Positions 6,579 to 20,325 of a DNA stretch of 64,000 nt are shown in pieces; the first letter of the stretch is position 1, and every line of letters begins with the position of its first letter. This DNA comes from an uncultured Sphingorhabdus sp. (GTDB taxonomy: Bacteria; Pseudomonadota; Alphaproteobacteria; Sphingomonadales; Sphingomonadaceae). The stretch spans positions 474,578-538,577 of the forward strand of contig CANLOL010000001.1 of the NCBI GenBank assembly GCA_947492905.1, read 5' to 3'. The position numbers and the translations under genes are program-made. The notes under the pieces are model-generated. The model saw only the letters and a list, made by a program, of their open reading frames with translations. It made no database searches and was not told the origin of the DNA.

Positions 6579-6914
6579 ATGAATTTAGACCATGATCAAT
6601 TTTTACTAGCTCGCGCGCAGCTTTCCGATATTTATGATAGTTTGAAAATCACATCATTCGACAGCAATCCCATGCAATATTTAATGCGGCTCGATAATAT
6701 TCGCACCACAGCCATGACGCATGATTTCATAGCCGTCGCAGAAATAGCCTCTGCTTTTGAAGCGGCGCTGCACAATACCATTAAATATGGTGAGAGCAAA
6801 TCTGTGATTGAGAATTTTCAAGAAATATTAAAAGATGCCATTGGTTGTTCATCAGATAATGGCGAAGTGGTGCAATCTTTATTAGCATCGGTTGCGATTC
6901 GCATTGCCCATTAA
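6579..6914 (+). CDS. Small helical protein of unknown function
   Basis: A 111-residue protein starting MNLDHDQFLLARAQLSDI. I chose the ATG at 6579 because GAGGCGAG lies just upstream. A start 8 codons earlier is possible but lacks a ribosome site. The sequence is predicted almost all helical, with amphipathic stretches such as EIASAFEAALHNTI and ENFQEILKDAI, and has no signal peptide or membrane segment. The helical pattern recalls a histidine-phosphotransfer fold, but the conserved HxxKG motif is absent, so I do not make that call. It lies between rpmG (divergent) and a cation-transporter gene on the same strand, 45 bases away. Confidence 0.6.
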   Translation: MNLDHDQFLLARAQLSDIYDSLKITSFDSNPMQYLMRLDNIRTTAMTHDFIAVAEIASAFEAALHNTIKYGESKSVIENFQEILKDAIGCSSDNGEVVQSLLASVAIRIAH

Positions 6915-6959
6915 TGCAACCATCAGCGTTCATCATTCCAACCGCAGCTTGGCATAATC

Positions 6960-7529
6960 ATGGATAGTTTTCTCATTACATTATTGGTCGTTGCCATCGC
7001 CGAAATGGGTGATCGCTCCCAATTGCTATCGGCGGTTTTGGCGATACGGTTCAAAAATGACAAAATGATCATATTGGGACTATTGCTCGCGACGATAATC
7101 AATTGCGCTTTATCCGCCTATTTGGGGTCAGCGATAAAAAATTGGATCAGCATGGATGCGTTAAAACTCTTTGCTTCTATCGCTTATATTTCTGGCGGTA
7201 TCGGCATGCTATTATGGTATCGGCCTCTGGATATATTGGAAAATTGGAAAATTGGCGCATTCGCAACCAGTTTTTTAGGCATATTAATTTTGCAGATTGG
7301 CGATAAAGGACAATTCATTATTGGCGCCAATGCAGCGCAAGCCGATCATTGGTTATTCCCATTTTTTGGCGCTATAATCGGCATTATGGTTGCCAATATA
7401 CCCGCCGTGGTTTTCAAAGAAGAATTGTCAGATATGATCCCGCTAAAAACCATTCGCAAGATTGGCGGAATCATCATCACATTCTGGGGCATCATTATGG
7501 CGATGCAGGCCTTTCGCATCATTGGATAA
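6960..7529 (+). CDS. TMEM165/GDT1 (UPF0016) family cation transporter
   Basis: A 189-residue membrane protein with about six segments in two halves. The family motif E-x-G-D-(K/R)-(S/T) is visible as AEMGDRSQ near residue 14. In the second half it reads LQIGDKGQF, with Gln in place of the usual Glu. Relatives (MneA, yeast Gdt1, human TMEM165) move Mn2+ or Ca2+ out of the cytoplasm, generally against protons. The ATG at 6960 follows the preceding gene by 45 bases. The next gene is dps, so the pair could both protect against metal or oxidative stress, although an untranslated stretch of 120 bases separates them. The cation is not predictable from sequence. Confidence 0.85.
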   Translation: MDSFLITLLVVAIAEMGDRSQLLSAVLAIRFKNDKMIILGLLLATIINCALSAYLGSAIKNWISMDALKLFASIAYISGGIGMLLWYRPLDILENWKIGAFATSFLGILILQIGDKGQFIIGANAAQADHWLFPFFGAIIGIMVANIPAVVFKEELSDMIPLKTIRKIGGIIITFWGIIMAMQAFRIIG

Positions 7530-7649
7530 ATGACTGATTAACAGACTTATGATTGAATAAATCGATAAGTCCAATTGCGCAAATCAACTTATATAATCTT
7601 CATTATTGCTCTATAAGTGGCACAACATAGATTAATAAGGGGTAATATC

Positions 7650-8111
7650 ATGGTCCAAAGTGGAAATAACAGCAAAACAGCCTTAACAGAGAGTCTGAAT
7701 GGATTGCTCGCAGATTGCTATGCGCTATTTATCAAAACGAAAAATTTTCATTGGCATGTGAGCGGTCCACATTTTCGCGACTATCATCTCTTATTCGATG
7801 ACCATGCCGCAGAGATTTTTGCCATCACTGATTTGATTGCAGAGCGCGTGCGTAAAAATGGGCAAGCATCGCTAACCTCTATTGCGAGCATCGCCGCACA
7901 TCAAAGCATTAGCGATCATGATGATCTTGATATTGATGCTAATCAGATGCTCAAAATATTGGCTGATGATAATAGAAAATTGGTCAACAAAATCCGTGAG
8001 GTTAAAGAATTGGCTGCTGAGGCAGGTGATAATGCCACCGATGGTATAGCCGATGATTGGACCGATCAAGCCGAACAGCGGATATGGTTTTTAACGCAAT
8101 CCGCGGCCTAA
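7650..8111 (+). CDS. dps: Dps/ferritin-like DNA-protecting protein
   Basis: A 153-residue Dps family protein starting MVQSGNNSKTALTESLN. The inter-subunit ferroxidase motif is clear: NFHWHVSGPHF near residue 35, then LLFDDHAAEIFAITD, which supplies the conserved H, D and E ligands. Dps assembles as a 12-mer that stores iron, consumes peroxide and coats DNA in starvation. The start at 7650 has AAGGGG upstream. An 11-codon upstream extension looks spurious. The 120-base leader contains an inverted repeat (GACTTAT at 7544-7550 with ATAAGTC at 7565-7571) about 80 bases before the start, which could be an operator. Transcription ends at the shared hairpin at 8134-8160. Confidence 0.92.
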   Translation: MVQSGNNSKTALTESLNGLLADCYALFIKTKNFHWHVSGPHFRDYHLLFDDHAAEIFAITDLIAERVRKNGQASLTSIASIAAHQSISDHDDLDIDANQMLKILADDNRKLVNKIREVKELAAEAGDNATDGIADDWTDQAEQRIWFLTQSAA

Positions 8112-11227: not shown

Positions 11228-11397
11228 AATCCTTAAAATTAAGATGTATTTGGTCGATATTTGCGCTCTAAACGCATAAAGATAATTGCAATCAACGCTA
11301 TTTCCATGCACAAAGCTTGCCAAGTGAGTATTTGCTAAGGAAATTTTATATATTCTTATCTATACTCAACATCATAGAGGATAGAAAAGAAGATATT

Positions 11398-12189
11398 ATG
11401 TCGTTGCAAATGCAAGAACCGGTTCTAACCGACAATGAACCCAATGTTACGGAAAATATTGCCGATACAAATGGCTTGGGCGTTATTTCAATAGCCAAAA
11501 GCTATGACAAAAGGGCAGTGTTGACCGATGTATCATTATCGGTAGCACGCGGCGAAGTTGTCGGCCTACTTGGCCCCAATGGCGCTGGTAAAACCACATG
11601 TTTTTATTCGGTCATGGGCCTTGTCAAACCCGATAGCGGACGTGTGATGCTGGCGGGTGAAGATATTACCGGATTGCCCATGTATAGGCGCGCTATATTG
11701 GGCCTTGGTTACCTACCGCAAGAAACATCCATTTTTCGCGGCATGACGGTAGAACAAAATATAAAAGCTGTATTGGAAATGGCCGTTCCAGACAAAGAAA
11801 GACGCGCCGAACGCTTAGAACAATTATTGGGTGAATTTGGTTTAACCGATCTGCGAACGTCCCCCTCTATGGCCCTATCAGGCGGCGAGCGTCGCCGCTG
11901 TGAAATTGCGCGCGCTCTGGCGGCTGATCCTAAAATCATGCTTCTCGATGAGCCATTTGCCGGCATTGACCCTATTTCAATTTCCGACATTAGGGAATTG
12001 GTCAAAGAATTAAAGCAGCGCGATATCGGGGTGCTTATCACCGATCATAATGTGCGCGAAACGCTCGACATTGTGGATCGCGCTTGCATCATTTATGATG
12101 GTCAGGTTCTATTTTCAGGCTCTCCGCAAGACTTAGTCGCTGATGAAAATGTTCGCCGATTATATTTGGGCGAAGGTTTCGCATTATGA
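11398..12189 (+). CDS. lptB: LPS export ABC transporter ATP-binding protein LptB
   Basis: A 263-residue ABC ATPase. Walker A is GPNGAGKTT (59-67), the signature is LSGGERRRCEIARAL (from 160), and Walker B is IMLLDEPFAGIDP with catalytic E185. SIFRGMTVEQNI is the Q-loop region specific for LptB. It powers extraction of lipopolysaccharide with LptF/LptG, which are encoded elsewhere. The frame is open to a TTG at 11317, but the ATG at 11398 preceded by AAGAAG gives the expected protein. The N-terminal ~28 residues (MSLQMQEPVLTDNEP) are extra compared with E. coli LptB (241 aa). rpoN follows 28 bases later, the classical lptB-rpoN order. Confidence 0.94.
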   Translation: MSLQMQEPVLTDNEPNVTENIADTNGLGVISIAKSYDKRAVLTDVSLSVARGEVVGLLGPNGAGKTTCFYSVMGLVKPDSGRVMLAGEDITGLPMYRRAILGLGYLPQETSIFRGMTVEQNIKAVLEMAVPDKERRAERLEQLLGEFGLTDLRTSPSMALSGGERRRCEIARALAADPKIMLLDEPFAGIDPISISDIRELVKELKQRDIGVLITDHNVRETLDIVDRACIIYDGQVLFSGSPQDLVADENVRRLYLGEGFAL

Positions 12190-12217
12190 TGCCATATGTT
12201 CGATTAATAGGATAGAT

Positions 12218-13744
12218 ATGGTGGCTCTTTCTCCTCGCTTAGATTTAAGGCAAAGCCAATCTTTAGTCATGACGCCGCAATTGCAGCAGGCGATCAAACT
12301 ATTGGCTTTATCGAGCTTGGAGGTCGAATCTTTCATCGCCGAAGAAATTGAGAAAAACCCCCTATTAGAGAGCGAGAGCACATCTTTATCCGCGCAAGAC
12401 GCATCGGTTAATAATGATACATCAGACAATGAAAATGGGGACGGCACAACAGAACGTGCCAGCGATGATGTCTTTAGCGACCAAGACTTTAACGGCAGCG
12501 AAGCATTAGACGTCAATATTGACAGCGATACAGTCAACCAAGATTGCGTGGCGGATAAAATATCGCATGATGGAGAGGCGGGATTAAGCGTCTCTGGTGG
12601 CCCCGATAGCAGCGGTTCTTTTGATAGCAATGATGGGCTGGATTTTGATAGTTTTGCCGCGCCAGATATCAGCCTGCGCGATCATCTATTGGTGCAAGCA
12701 GGGGCATCATTTAGCGGTTCAGAATTGCTAATAGCCCAGCAGATTATCGACAAGATAGAAGCCACTGGATATTTAGAATATGAATTGCCATTGCTGGCCT
12801 ATCAAATGGGTGTTGATGCCCAAGATATGGAACGCATATTATTGGTTGTACAAAGATTTGACCCAATCGGAGTTGGCGCCCGCAATTTAAGCGAATGTAT
12901 CGCCATTCAAGCCAAAGAAGCCGATAGATATGACCCCTGCATGGCCAAATTAATCGATAATTTGGATCTGGTGGGCAAGGGGGCTTTTGACCGCCTGCGC
13001 CGCATGTGCAATTGCGATGAAGAAGATTTGCGCGACATGCTGATGGAGCTGCGCGATTATGATCCTAAACCTGGATGCCAATTTTTGCACGATGATAGCG
13101 TTGCCATTACGCCCGATATTTTTGTCACCGCCAAAGGCAAAGGTTGGAGCATTGAGCTGAATAGTGCTAATTTACCAAGGCTATTGGTCAACCGCAGCTA
13201 TTATAGCGAGATGAGCAGCGCTGGCCCTGATAAAGAGACTAAGGCATGGCTGAATGAATGTATTGCCGATGCCAATTGGCTTATCAAGGCTATGGATCAG
13301 CGGCAAAAGACCATTTTGAAAACGGTTAGCGAGATTATTAAACAACAAGATGGGTTTTTCCGTCATGGCGTTTCGCATTTAAAACCGATGACATTGCGCA
13401 TGGTGGCCGAAGCCATTGAAATGCATGAATCCACCGTTAGCCGCGTGACCAGCAATAAATATCTTAGCTGTGATCGGGGTGTATATGAGCTGAAATATTT
13501 CTTTACCAGCGGTGTGCAAAATAGCGATGGTAGCGAGGGCATATCAGCCGAAGCGGTGAAAAACGCCATCAAAGAATTGATTGATAATGAGGGTAAGAAA
13601 ATCTTATCCGATGATAAATTGGTAGAACTGCTGCGTGCCAAAGATTTTGATATCGCGCGCAGAACAGTGGCAAAATATCGCGAAGCCATGGGCATTGGTT
13701 CATCGGTTCAACGGCGGCGCGAAATGAAGATGACCGGCGGTTGA
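12218..13744 (+). CDS. rpoN: RNA polymerase sigma-54 factor
   Basis: A 508-residue sigma-54. Region I is the Gln/Leu-rich start (LDLRQSQSLVMTPQLQQAIK), followed by an acidic, poorly conserved region II (about 55-150), the core-binding region, the HTH (MVAEAIEMHESTVSRVTSNKY) and the RpoN box ARRTVAKYRE near the C-terminus. It directs transcription from -24/-12 promoters with AAA+ activators. The ATG at 12218, preceded by AGGAT, is the right start. The open frame further upstream overlaps lptB. hpf and ptsN, which often follow rpoN, are absent. The stop codon abuts the stop of a convergent small gene with no base between. Confidence 0.95.
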   Translation: MVALSPRLDLRQSQSLVMTPQLQQAIKLLALSSLEVESFIAEEIEKNPLLESESTSLSAQDASVNNDTSDNENGDGTTERASDDVFSDQDFNGSEALDVNIDSDTVNQDCVADKISHDGEAGLSVSGGPDSSGSFDSNDGLDFDSFAAPDISLRDHLLVQAGASFSGSELLIAQQIIDKIEATGYLEYELPLLAYQMGVDAQDMERILLVVQRFDPIGVGARNLSECIAIQAKEADRYDPCMAKLIDNLDLVGKGAFDRLRRMCNCDEEDLRDMLMELRDYDPKPGCQFLHDDSVAITPDIFVTAKGKGWSIELNSANLPRLLVNRSYYSEMSSAGPDKETKAWLNECIADANWLIKAMDQRQKTILKTVSEIIKQQDGFFRHGVSHLKPMTLRMVAEAIEMHESTVSRVTSNKYLSCDRGVYELKYFFTSGVQNSDGSEGISAEAVKNAIKELIDNEGKKILSDDKLVELLRAKDFDIARRTVAKYREAMGIGSSVQRRREMKMTGG

Positions 13745-16816: not shown

Positions 16817-19111
16817 TTAATTTTGGCGGATTTTGGACTGCATAGCATTGAAATTATCCTCAATATCAGAAGCGATATTTTTCAAAACACTCGCAGTTTC
16901 ACCAAGGTTTTCAGCCGATGTTGCGGTTGAACCAATTTGTTCAGCAACAAGATCAACATTATGTCCAGCGCGCACTGATAATTCAGTAGCGCCTTTTACC
17001 AATTGGCCCAATTGATCGCCTTTAGAGGCTTGCTGAGACGCAGATTTTTGCGCCTCTGAAGTGATAGCCGTCAGACCGTTAATTTCTTCATCAATGACCC
17101 TGAAACGAGCAACAGCTTCGCCAATTAAGCCAGAGATATTACCGATAATATCCTGAATCTCTATTGAAACGCCGCTGGTTTGCTGTGCCAATGTGCGAAT
17201 TTCATTTGCCACCACGCCAAAGCTCTCACCATGTTCACCCGCATGGGCCGCTTCTATCGTTGCATTCAACGCCAATATATTGGTGCGGCGCATGATATAA
17301 TTGATAGACGCCACCAATTTCCCAATATCCTCAGCACCTTTTTCCAATGAGCTGACGGCGTTCCTGCCTTTGATACTAGCTTGTGCTGCTGTTTGCACAG
17401 ATTGATTGGCGCTGCCCATATCGAACGACATATCGCGCAGAGTCGCGGCCAATTCATTGGTGGATTCTGAAACGCGCTGAGCAATCTCTACGGCTTCGCA
17501 TGCTATGGAATTTGCGTCAGAAGCTTTAACTTCTGATGTATCAGATTGCACCATCAATTGTTCGGATTGCGAAGCCAATTGCAGAGCCTGATTTTGTAAT
17601 TGATGAACTTGATTTTCAAATGCTGATTGGAACCGCGCCAGAGTAGCATTAATTTCTTCTGCTCTTTCGCGTTCTTGATCGCCCACTTTTACCAAAATAT
17701 CGCGCTCTATTTTCTCATTTGCAGCCTGTTCAGCCAATAATTTTTCACGTGCTAATCTCTCTGATTTTTCTACGCGGGCCAAAAAATCATTAAATCCATG
17801 CGCCAATTCTGCGCCTTCATCAAATGGGTCAAAATCAACGCGCGCTGACAAATCAATATCGCCCTCATTTAAGCGCTTTAATACTGTCTCTAAGCTAGCT
17901 GTACCCAATACTGTGCCATGTTCAACAATGTTTAGGCCCATAACTTCTTCATCTTCGGTGACGCGCAGCAAAGACAATCTGTTTAATGTATAGGCCGCTG
18001 CATAAACAGTCGCAAATGCAAAGCCAGCAGCAAGCAAAGTACCCATAGTCTGAATTGTCAAATGCTCAAATAATGGCATTTCAAACGTTCCGGGCCGTGC
18101 TACCAAAGGCACAGCGATCGTGCCCATTACACCAGCCGCCCCATGCGTAGAAAATGCATGGACGCTGTCGTCCAATTTTAATTTCTTTTCGACAAATTCT
18201 GCACATAGCAAACTGAATAAAGCAGCGCCAATACCCAATAATAGCGCCATTATGGGCATTGTATAAGGTGCGCTAGCCGTAACGGCGACTAGGCCGGATA
18301 ATAAACCATTGATCATATATTCCGTGCGAAACACACCCGAGCGCAAATATCCCAGAAAAGTAGCTGCTAATGTTGCTGCGCATGCTGCTATAACTGTGTT
18401 TAACAATGCGTAAGAAAACTCTGCGCTTCTAGGGTCTAAACCCCCTGTATTAAAACCAAGCCAGCCCGTGAATAATATCATTGCGCCTGCTGCTGCTAAA
18501 ACTGGGCTATATCCCTGTATATGCTGTGAGTCCCCTGTGTCCTTGGCATAGCGGCCAACGCGCGGACCAAGCACCATTATTGCTGCTAATGCTGCGAAAC
18601 CACCAGTGACATGGACAACGGTAGCGCCTGCGGAATCCACAAAGCCCTGAAGCTGTAACCAACCAGCGGCTTTTTCACCCATTAATATATCGCCCCATAT
18701 CCAATGGCCAACCACTGGGTAAACTGCGACGCTGACAACAACAGCGATAAGCAAATAGCCGGGAAAACGAATGCGTTCAGCTACCGCGCCCGATAATATG
18801 GTAGCCGCAGTACCGCAGAACATAGCCTGAAATACTAACATGGGAATTATGTCGGGTGATATGGAATTAAGGCCCAGTAAATTGCTATCCCAGCCGATAA
18901 AACCCGAACCTGAATAACCAAACATTAAAGCCGCGCCCACCAATATAAAGGCTAAGAAAGCAATCGAAAAATCGATTACATTTTTCATCGCAACATTGAT
19001 GCTATTTTTAGATCGCACAAAGCCTGCTTCGACAAACATAAAGCCGATTTGCATAGAGGCGACCAAAATCGCAGCAACGCAGAGCCATATTAATGTGGGC
19101 ATATTTTCCAT
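16817..19111 (-). CDS. Ammonium channel (Amt) fused to HAMP-like and chemoreceptor signalling domains
   Basis: A 764-residue fusion. Residues 1-400 form an Amt/Mep channel: D159 and H167 ([14 protein letters not shown]), H323 (STHGAAGV), GWLGFNTGG, and the Amt C-terminal tail ending [10 protein letters not shown]. The twin-histidine pore is intact. Residues about 405-450 ([20 protein letters not shown]) look like a HAMP relay. A coiled coil (450-520) leads to a methyl-accepting signalling domain with the hairpin tip [17 protein letters not shown] (610-626). Compared with E. coli Tsr the tip has R608 for F373 and H623 for R388, both trimer contacts. No che or flagellar gene is in the window. 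Likely an ammonium sensor. The output is unknown. Confidence 0.9.
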
Positions 19112-19350: not shown

Positions 19351-20325
19351 TTATTTCGCGGCCGTAACTTCGGCCTTTTTAGGCGGAGACTTCAGTTGAT
19401 ATATGCGCACATAATCTATTTCCATACGCGCAGGAAATGCATCACCGCTTATCCCTTTTTGGCCACCCCAATCACCGCCAACGGCGATATTAAGGAGCAA
19501 ATGATGCTCATTGTCAAAGGGCCAGCGCGCCTTTGCCTTATTATTGGTTTTGCCCTTAGTTTCATTTTTATACAGATATTTAGGGGCATCATTCATACCA
19601 AATAATATAAAATCTGGTGTCCACAACATTTGATATCTATGCATAGTATCGCATGCATCAGGCACATCAAATTTATTGGTTTTTTCTGTATTTTTACTAT
19701 GGTTGTAGGCTTTTGTATGGATCGTTTGATGGATGACGCCTGGGTCAAAACCAACATGTTCCATAATATCTATCTCGCCGCCATTGGGCCAAATTACATC
19801 CGGATCTTCTGGTAAAGTCCATATCGCAGGCCATGTCCCTCGGCCGCATGGTAATTTTGCTTTAATTTCAAAAAAGCCATATTTCCAAGCTGCTTTGCCG
19901 CGCGTTAATATACGGGCGGATGTATATTTTTGTCCTGACCAATCTGGATATTCTTCTTTATCAAGCTGCTCCGCATGCGCTTCTATGATGAGGCTGCCAT
20001 CTTCAATACGGGAGTTTTTAGAGCGTGCGCGGGAATAATATTGCTTTTCATTATTATACCAGCCTTCTTGATTGCGCTCAGTCGCATAATCCCATTTGCT
20101 CTCATCCAGCATAGCGCCATTGGAAAACTCATCCTGAAATACCAATTCATAGCCCTTAGGCGCATGATGAACTTCTACTCTTTTTTCTGGTTCTGCATCA
20201 GGCCTCTGCTGGTTGGCAGAGGGTGCGCCATTGGTTGGCTGCGCAGTATCTTTTAAAATAGCATCGCCGCTTTGGTTGACGGCCAATACCATCAATATCG
20301 AAGAAAATGTTAATTTAGCAGCCAT
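19351..20325 (-). CDS. GH16 family glycoside hydrolase (beta-glucanase/laminarinase type)
   Basis: A 324-residue secreted enzyme. An N-terminal signal-like segment and a low-complexity linker (to about 55) precede a GH16 jellyroll: FQDEFSNGAMLDESKWDY, WYNNEKQYYS, YGFFEIKAKLPCGRGTWPAIWTLP. The catalytic motif E-x-D-x-x-E is E184-I-D186-I-M-E189, with nucleophile E184 and acid/base E189. The active-site type fits endo-beta-1,3- or 1,3(4)-glucanase. The gene lies downstream of a TonB-dependent receptor on the same strand, but a strong terminator (20344-20387) separates them. It likely cuts laminarin-like glucans for uptake by that receptor. Other GH16 substrates (agar, carrageenan, own polymer) are not excluded. 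Confidence 0.9.
   Translation of the reverse strand: MAAKLTFSSILMVLAVNQSGDAILKDTAQPTNGAPSANQQRPDAEPEKRVEVHHAPKGYELVFQDEFSNGAMLDESKWDYATERNQEGWYNNEKQYYSRARSKNSRIEDGSLIIEAHAEQLDKEEYPDWSGQKYTSARILTRGKAAWKYGFFEIKAKLPCGRGTWPAIWTLPEDPDVIWPNGGEIDIMEHVGFDPGVIHQTIHTKAYNHSKNTEKTNKFDVPDACDTMHRYQMLWTPDFILFGMNDAPKYLYKNETKGKTNNKAKARWPFDNEHHLLLNIAVGGDWGGQKGISGDAFPARMEIDYVRIYQLKSPPKKAEVTAAK

Follow-up and report, generated by a model that had tools for sequence, protein, structure and literature searches.

The window, by which we mean the whole 64,000-nucleotide stretch of Sphingorhabdus DNA analysed here, carries on its minus strand a single continuous frame of 764 codons that joins an ammonium transporter (Amt) domain, a HAMP-like relay and the signalling hairpin of a methyl-accepting chemotaxis protein (MCP), as listed in Table 1. 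Its coordinates are as the original prediction gave them. A Pfam scan of the protein matched PF00909 (Amt) at residues 9-400 with 311.7 bits (cut-off 23.2) and PF00015 (MCPsignal) at a score well over its cut-off of 34.6, and it found no HisKA or HATPase domain. The predicted monomer model (mean pLDDT 83.9, pTM 0.62) shows the Amt helix bundle with two short tail helices (386-391 and 393-398), a short helix (405-415) leading through a loop into a long one (434-484), and two hairpin helices (501-623 and 625-763), with low confidence at residues 476-508 and 754-764.

Table 1 Features of the Amt-MCP locus (positions in the window)
Feature	Position	Strand	Basis
Amt-MCP fusion gene, 764 aa	16817..19111	-	Unbroken frame; G404 orthologue with identical junction
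Ammonium transporter domain, residues 9-400	17912..19087	-	
Amt cytoplasmic tail, residues 383-399	17915..17965	-	R383, E389, G392, L393, N394, E397 and H398 each in 120/120 Amt-MCPs
HAMP-like relay, residues 405-450	17762..17899	-	PF00672 13.9 bits; profile-profile comparison with MCP HAMPs 91.9% over 41 columns; structure model
MCP antiparallel hairpin, residues 501-763	16823..17611	-	PF00015 71.7 bits at 583-697; model helices
Hairpin tip, residues 603-634, including R608, R609 and H623	17210..17305	-	Residue counts; dN/dS 0.009 over 596-655
Glycoside hydrolase family 16, upstream neighbour	19351..20325	-	PF00722 74.1 bits; same order in G404; not part of the receptor

A second genome of the genus, G404, encodes an uninterrupted Amt-MCP frame of 780 codons with the same junction (L106:5811-8120), in which 683 of 764 residues (89%) are identical. 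Between the two genes dN/dS is 0.065 overall, with 0.076 in the Amt domain, 0.043 in the tail and HAMP-like part, 0.081 in the coil and 0.05 in the hairpin; the tip region is the most constrained segment of all. This substitution pattern indicates that the fusion is a gene under strong purifying selection. Because G404 has the same junction and dN/dS is low, the fusion is no product of a frameshift or an assembly join, two artefacts that the original prediction had considered at residues 400-450 along with absence from relatives; with the single frame, chance is ruled out as well. The Pfam domains and the conserved same-genus orthologue thus uphold the protein as a candidate receptor of the order Amt, HAMP-like, MCP.

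The window and G404 share the gene order LytS-like kinase, LytTR-like regulator, TonB-receptor-like protein, glycoside hydrolase family 16 and Amt-MCP, the LytS-like and LytTR-like names being assigned by eye. Inspection by eye placed genes for an LptB-like ATPase and RpoN (sigma-54) at 11317-13744, some 3 kb away from the fusion gene. Sigma-54 sites showed no excess in the window (48 observed vs. 44.3 expected); promoter-like sites numbered 9 against 6.4 expected and terminator-like sites 7 against 3.4.

We analyzed residue conservation in a set of 120 Amt-MCPs, namely the listed database matches with the window protein replacing its near-copy P0002. Both domains were present in all 120 listed of 2430 matches. 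In the fusion, the pore residues F98, W139, D159, H167, F220 and H323, comprising the Phe gate, Trp, Asp and twin His, are kept, in agreement with the earlier statement that D159, H167 and H323 are intact. At the position of AmtB S219 it has G224, and glycine stands there in 25 of the 120. The regulatory tail is likewise retained (R383, E389, G392-L393, H398), as predicted, but it reads GLN, not GLD. The asparagine responsible (residue 394, window 17930-17932) is invariant across the set.

The accessible part of the Ks-Amt5 report lists Q24, E31, N47, D50, T51, T109 and T112 as NH4+ ligands (PMC5764959). Six of these seven have equivalents in the fusion, Q21, E28, N44, D47, T104 and S107, which are kept in 118, 120, 120, 120, 120 and 117 of the 120 Amt-MCPs, respectively; the seventh, T51, corresponds to F48, and threonine occurs there in none of them. 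At these six sites the two other transporters of the same genome have AENLSS and TYCVAV, and neither Q at the first site nor D at the fourth occurs in any of 31 Amts from relatives and from this genome. We then considered the 120 proteins most closely related to the Amt part, 63 of which are at most 480 aa long and lack a second Pfam domain, while 57 are longer or fused. The motif QENDTS is present in 57/57 of the longer or fused relatives and in 59/63 of the short ones, some of which are labelled partial (P0247, P0265) and could be fragments of longer proteins. The intramembrane ammonium site is therefore ruled out as a mark of sensors only; it marks a clade and is no proof of sensing. At the tail position, 41 of the 63 short relatives have aspartate (GLD), compared with a single one of the 57 longer or fused proteins; on these counts GLN may distinguish Amts that serve as sensors. 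F24 occupies the place of one of three bulky plug residues of Ks-Amt5, but phenylalanine is also found there in 4 of the 31 ordinary Amts and in the short relatives, so it is no proof of a closed pore.

The segment between the two domains matched PF00672 (HAMP) with a score below the cut-off of 25, at residues 407-448, and for this reason we call it HAMP-like only. A relative (L111) scores 29.8 bits at the equivalent place, and PF00672 stands in the precomputed domain list of 26 of the 120 Amt-MCPs among the matches listed. When the Amt-MCP linker profile was compared with a profile of 79 MCP HAMPs, the two aligned in register. A small-profile comparison built on three sequences gave a probability of 6.9% over 39 columns, and an HMM of HAMPs from other MCPs detected a HAMP after the Amt domain in just 2 of the 120 Amt-MCPs, the fusion under study not among them. 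By these profiles, the linker is best described as HAMP-like rather than HAMP proper.

No gap interrupts the alignment of the hairpin (residues 494-759) with either of the two other MCPs encoded in the genome, consistent with a single mixed array. At the candidate methylation pairs, as aligned by eye, the fusion reads NE and SQQ and the 585-aa MCP of its own genome EQ and EEQ. R608 and H623 are indeed present at the tip, and we take them to correspond to F373 and R388 in Tsr numbering. The original prediction raised, along with these exchanges, the possibility of a non-standard or distant CheA/CheW array. We counted residues in the 120 Amt-MCPs and in 114 other MCPs (P0008-P0121), which were chosen by words shared with the fusion protein and so are not a random sample. 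The Tsr-373 position tolerates many different residues (S, E, Q, K, D, G and more): among the Amt-MCPs it holds K in 29, D in 24, E in 12, R in 10, S in 10, A in 9, F in 6, G in 6, L in 4 and other residues in 10, and F stands there in 2/114 other MCPs. At Tsr-388, arginine prevails (107/120 Amt-MCPs and 105/114 other MCPs) and histidine is an uncommon natural variant (6/120 and 8/114). Arginine at the Tsr-Q374 position, R609 here, occurs in 11/120 and 2/114. The near-invariant tip residues N616, E620, F631 and V633 are all present in the fusion; the equivalents of N381 (N616) and F396 (F631) are found in 120/120 Amt-MCPs and that of E385 (E620) in 118/120. Of the other two MCPs in this genome, one carries K and one carries G at the 373 position, and both carry R at 388. 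A second count by pattern in 29 Sphingomonadaceae MCP loci recovered tips in 12 only (E in 10, K in 1 and R in 1 at the 373 equivalent; R in 12/12 and no histidine at 388) and carries little weight because 17 loci were missed. With the residue counts in Amt-MCPs and other MCPs, the altered tip is weak evidence for a non-standard array, and we reject that as the main reading: position 373 is variable, histidine at 388 is an uncommon natural variant, the key residues are kept and dN/dS is at its minimum here.

Next, we examined how widely the fusion occurs. A PF00909 survey found it in 2 of 25 genus genomes, the present one (G000) and G404; a third candidate, in G412, was ruled out as an ordinary Amt cut by a contig end. 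Among 397 family genomes, a set that did not include G404, only the genome under study matched residues 376-764 over their full length. In the class, at least 5 of 385 genomes carry the fusion (G000, G552, G717, G463 and G638), a lower bound because at most two candidates were scored per genome; the domains were confirmed in G552, G717 and G463, and G638 was assigned by frame only. Other matches of the class survey with frames of more than 700 codons include Amt-histidine kinases (3/3 checked). A further 10 loci comprised six Amt-MCPs (L045, by frame, and L046, L047, L048, L051 and L052), with Spirochaetes and Methylococcaceae MAGs among their sources, three Amt-kinases (L050, with weak kinase scores, L053 and L054) and one Amt alone (L049). 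Fusions also occur in a Planctomycete (P0316) and on Phaeobacter and Tritonibacter plasmids. On the Phaeobacter inhibens plasmid pP88_b, typed as conjugative, the Amt-MCP gene (L092:5944-8409) adjoins a recombinase gene and has an IS481 transposase nearby, a context that may allow transfer of this receptor from cell to cell. The Amt-MCP architecture is thinly spread but recurs: it is little studied, as the original prediction held, but wider than was thought there, with both domains in every listed match, though sparse in each group.

The same Amt module bears histidine kinase, GGDEF, PAS or MCP outputs in relatives, the Amt-GGDEF proteins being found in Vibrio and Pseudoalteromonas. Additional domains were seen within this Amt clade (P0240, P0254, P0260, P0266 and P0309), namely PAS and, in P0309, PF00211 (class 3 cyclase); outputs are thus widely swapped. 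In a tree of the Amt part (90 selected rows, quick search, SH-aLRT support only), the window protein falls inside a group of 15 Amt-MCPs with an SH-aLRT support of 100%. On this tree the MCP label must change 6 times, and well-supported branches force at least 4 of these changes; MCP outputs were thus acquired or exchanged on more than one occasion.

No che or flagellar genes had been seen near the fusion gene, and this holds; the distant CheA and CheW that the original prediction proposed to look for were found in the genome. A complete set of CheA, CheW, CheY, CheB and CheR genes follows a ChpT-like gene at about 1812-1818 kb of contig C1, some 1.3 Mb from the receptor gene at 491-494 kb. 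Together with the ChpT-like gene the cluster spans L009:7567-13556 (1811.6-1817.6 kb of C1). The ChpT-like gene scored 197.9 and 169.3 bits, both under the cut-offs of 240 and 225. CheA (816 aa, L009:8336-10786) has Hpt, dimerisation, HATPase and CheW domains; the approximately 250 residues past its CheW domain have no Pfam match at E 0.01 and by eye look like another CheW-like segment and a degenerate receiver. The genome, rated 100% complete, holds three MCPs, the fusion included. It gave no match to FlhA, FliG_C reached 13.6 bits against a cut-off of 23.3, and PilT reached 65.7 bits against the 319 needed, with a match that by eye looks like a CpaF/TadA ATPase. The FlhA search exceeded its cut-off in 4 of 14 control genomes (E. 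coli, B. subtilis, C. vibrioides and T. maritima). Across 28 genus genomes, 16 have a CheW domain and 12 have FlhA (8 genomes have the two together, 8 have CheW alone, 4 have FlhA alone and 8 lack both), and the two genus genomes with an Amt-MCP, G000 and G404, have CheW and no FlhA. A CheW domain was found in 6/6 Amt-MCP genomes checked, a weak test since 16/28 genus genomes have CheW anyway.

On balance, we consider it probable that the gene product is an ammonium receptor resembling the sensor Amts Ks-Amt5 and Sd-Amt1 and that it feeds a CheA pathway with a non-flagellar output. Support comes from the domains, the conserved orthologue with its dN/dS, the full che cluster, CheW in the Amt-MCP genomes and the gap-free hairpin, as well as from the Ks-Amt5 site residues, the nearest folds and the swapped outputs of the same Amt module. 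Against a receptor count the occurrence of the site residues in short relatives, the glycine in place of the outer serine, the sub-threshold HAMP score, and R609 and H623, which are uncommon among MCPs. We infer ligand, coupling and output as follows. Ammonium would enter the outer vestibule and occupy the intramembrane site formed by Q21, E28, N44, D47, T104 and S107; its occupancy would shift the Amt tail, the HAMP-like relay would hand this shift on to the hairpin, and the hairpin would alter CheA activity within a mixed array shared with the two remaining MCPs, with CheY and CheB output aimed at something besides a flagellum. Amt proteins are trimeric and MCP rods dimeric, so the chains of neighbouring Amt trimers should pair; the six chains of two Amt trimers might then supply one trimer of MCP dimers. 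More tentatively, we envisage a motor-less, ammonium-gated array in which Amt trimers joined by MCP dimers form a lattice that drives CheA in flagellum-less Sphingomonadaceae, with a developmental or surface-attachment output. Such an output is suggested by the ChpT-like gene adjoining CheA and by the CpaF/TadA-like pilus ATPase in the genome.

The protein could instead be chiefly a transporter, a transceptor whose MCP part reads ammonium flux, its signal being tied to transport with no need of a membrane binding site. Retention of the Phe gate, twin His, W139 and D159 suits this reading, as does the distribution of phenylalanine at F24, which leaves a closed pore unproven. However, the genome already has two other Amts, one of them right after a PII-like gene (L013:6252-6593 and 6639-7967, by eye), the outer serine is replaced by glycine, and loss of transport is reported for Ks-Amt5 in the available part of its description (PMC5764959). 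We regard a transceptor as unlikely.

The altered tip could instead exclude the receptor from the CheA/CheW array, leaving it to signal elsewhere or act as a decoy. M607, R608, R609 and H623 do deviate from the common tip, and the equivalents of N376, A387 and E391 are looser in Amt-MCPs than in the 114 other MCPs, but a tip that is the most constrained segment of the protein, N616 and E620 conserved almost throughout and CheW in each Amt-MCP genome checked make such exclusion rather improbable. Least credible of all, and in our judgement very unlikely, is ordinary ammonium chemotaxis by swimming; the original prediction had proposed a deletion test for ammonium taxis. An MCP fold, a che cluster and the joint presence of CheW and FlhA in 8 of the 28 genus genomes would be in keeping with it; yet this genome, rated 100% complete, has no FlhA match and only sub-threshold FliG_C and PilT scores, the identical FlhA search exceeds its cut-off in four flagellated control genomes, and G404, the second genus genome with an Amt-MCP, also lacks an FlhA match.

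Database Amt-MCPs are named merely ammonium transporter or methyl-accepting chemotaxis protein, and we found no functional study of one among the titles and abstract beginnings of the open-licence literature, a collection mostly without subscription papers. The available main text of a 2023 review (PMC10433425) contains none of the terms chemotaxis, fused and GGDEF, and in the available part of PMC10883770 the letters cheA occur only within cheater and cheating. The nearest solved folds are Ks-Amt5 (PDB 6eu6) and the Sd-Amt1 receptor in its ON and OFF states (PDB 8qj3, 8qj4 and 8qpf); for the Sd-Amt1 structures the open-licence literature yielded no accompanying paper.

Sensors in which an Amt carries a fused output are already known, and the motor-less setting is the freshest part of the present case. 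The fusion would provide a specific input for the che pathways retained in flagellum-less genomes, and with three MCPs and one che cluster the system is small enough for testing. A channel fold as chemoreceptor input would also reveal by what means a dimeric rod is driven from a trimeric transporter, a symmetry problem posed by Ks-Amt5, where histidine kinase modules on a trimeric core are called unprecedented in the accessible part of the report (PMC5764959). Ks-Amt5 of Kuenenia stuttgartiensis has equivalents in the fusion for six of its seven NH4+ site residues, but its output is a histidine kinase rather than an MCP hairpin. Sd-Amt1 of Shewanella denitrificans, which its PDB entry titles label a receptor and assign to ON and OFF states, is nearest by sequence, with an alignment that extends through the HAMP-like part to residue 453. 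The same domain order is found in Sphingorhabdus arenilitoris (P0006, 50% identity) and in Phaeobacter inhibens (WP_102884552.1, 34% identity), there encoded on the conjugative-typed plasmid. With Tsr-type classical MCPs the protein has the hairpin and the most conserved tip residues in common. The sensor of a classical MCP is a periplasmic domain between two helices, whereas that of the fusion is an 11-helix channel fold.
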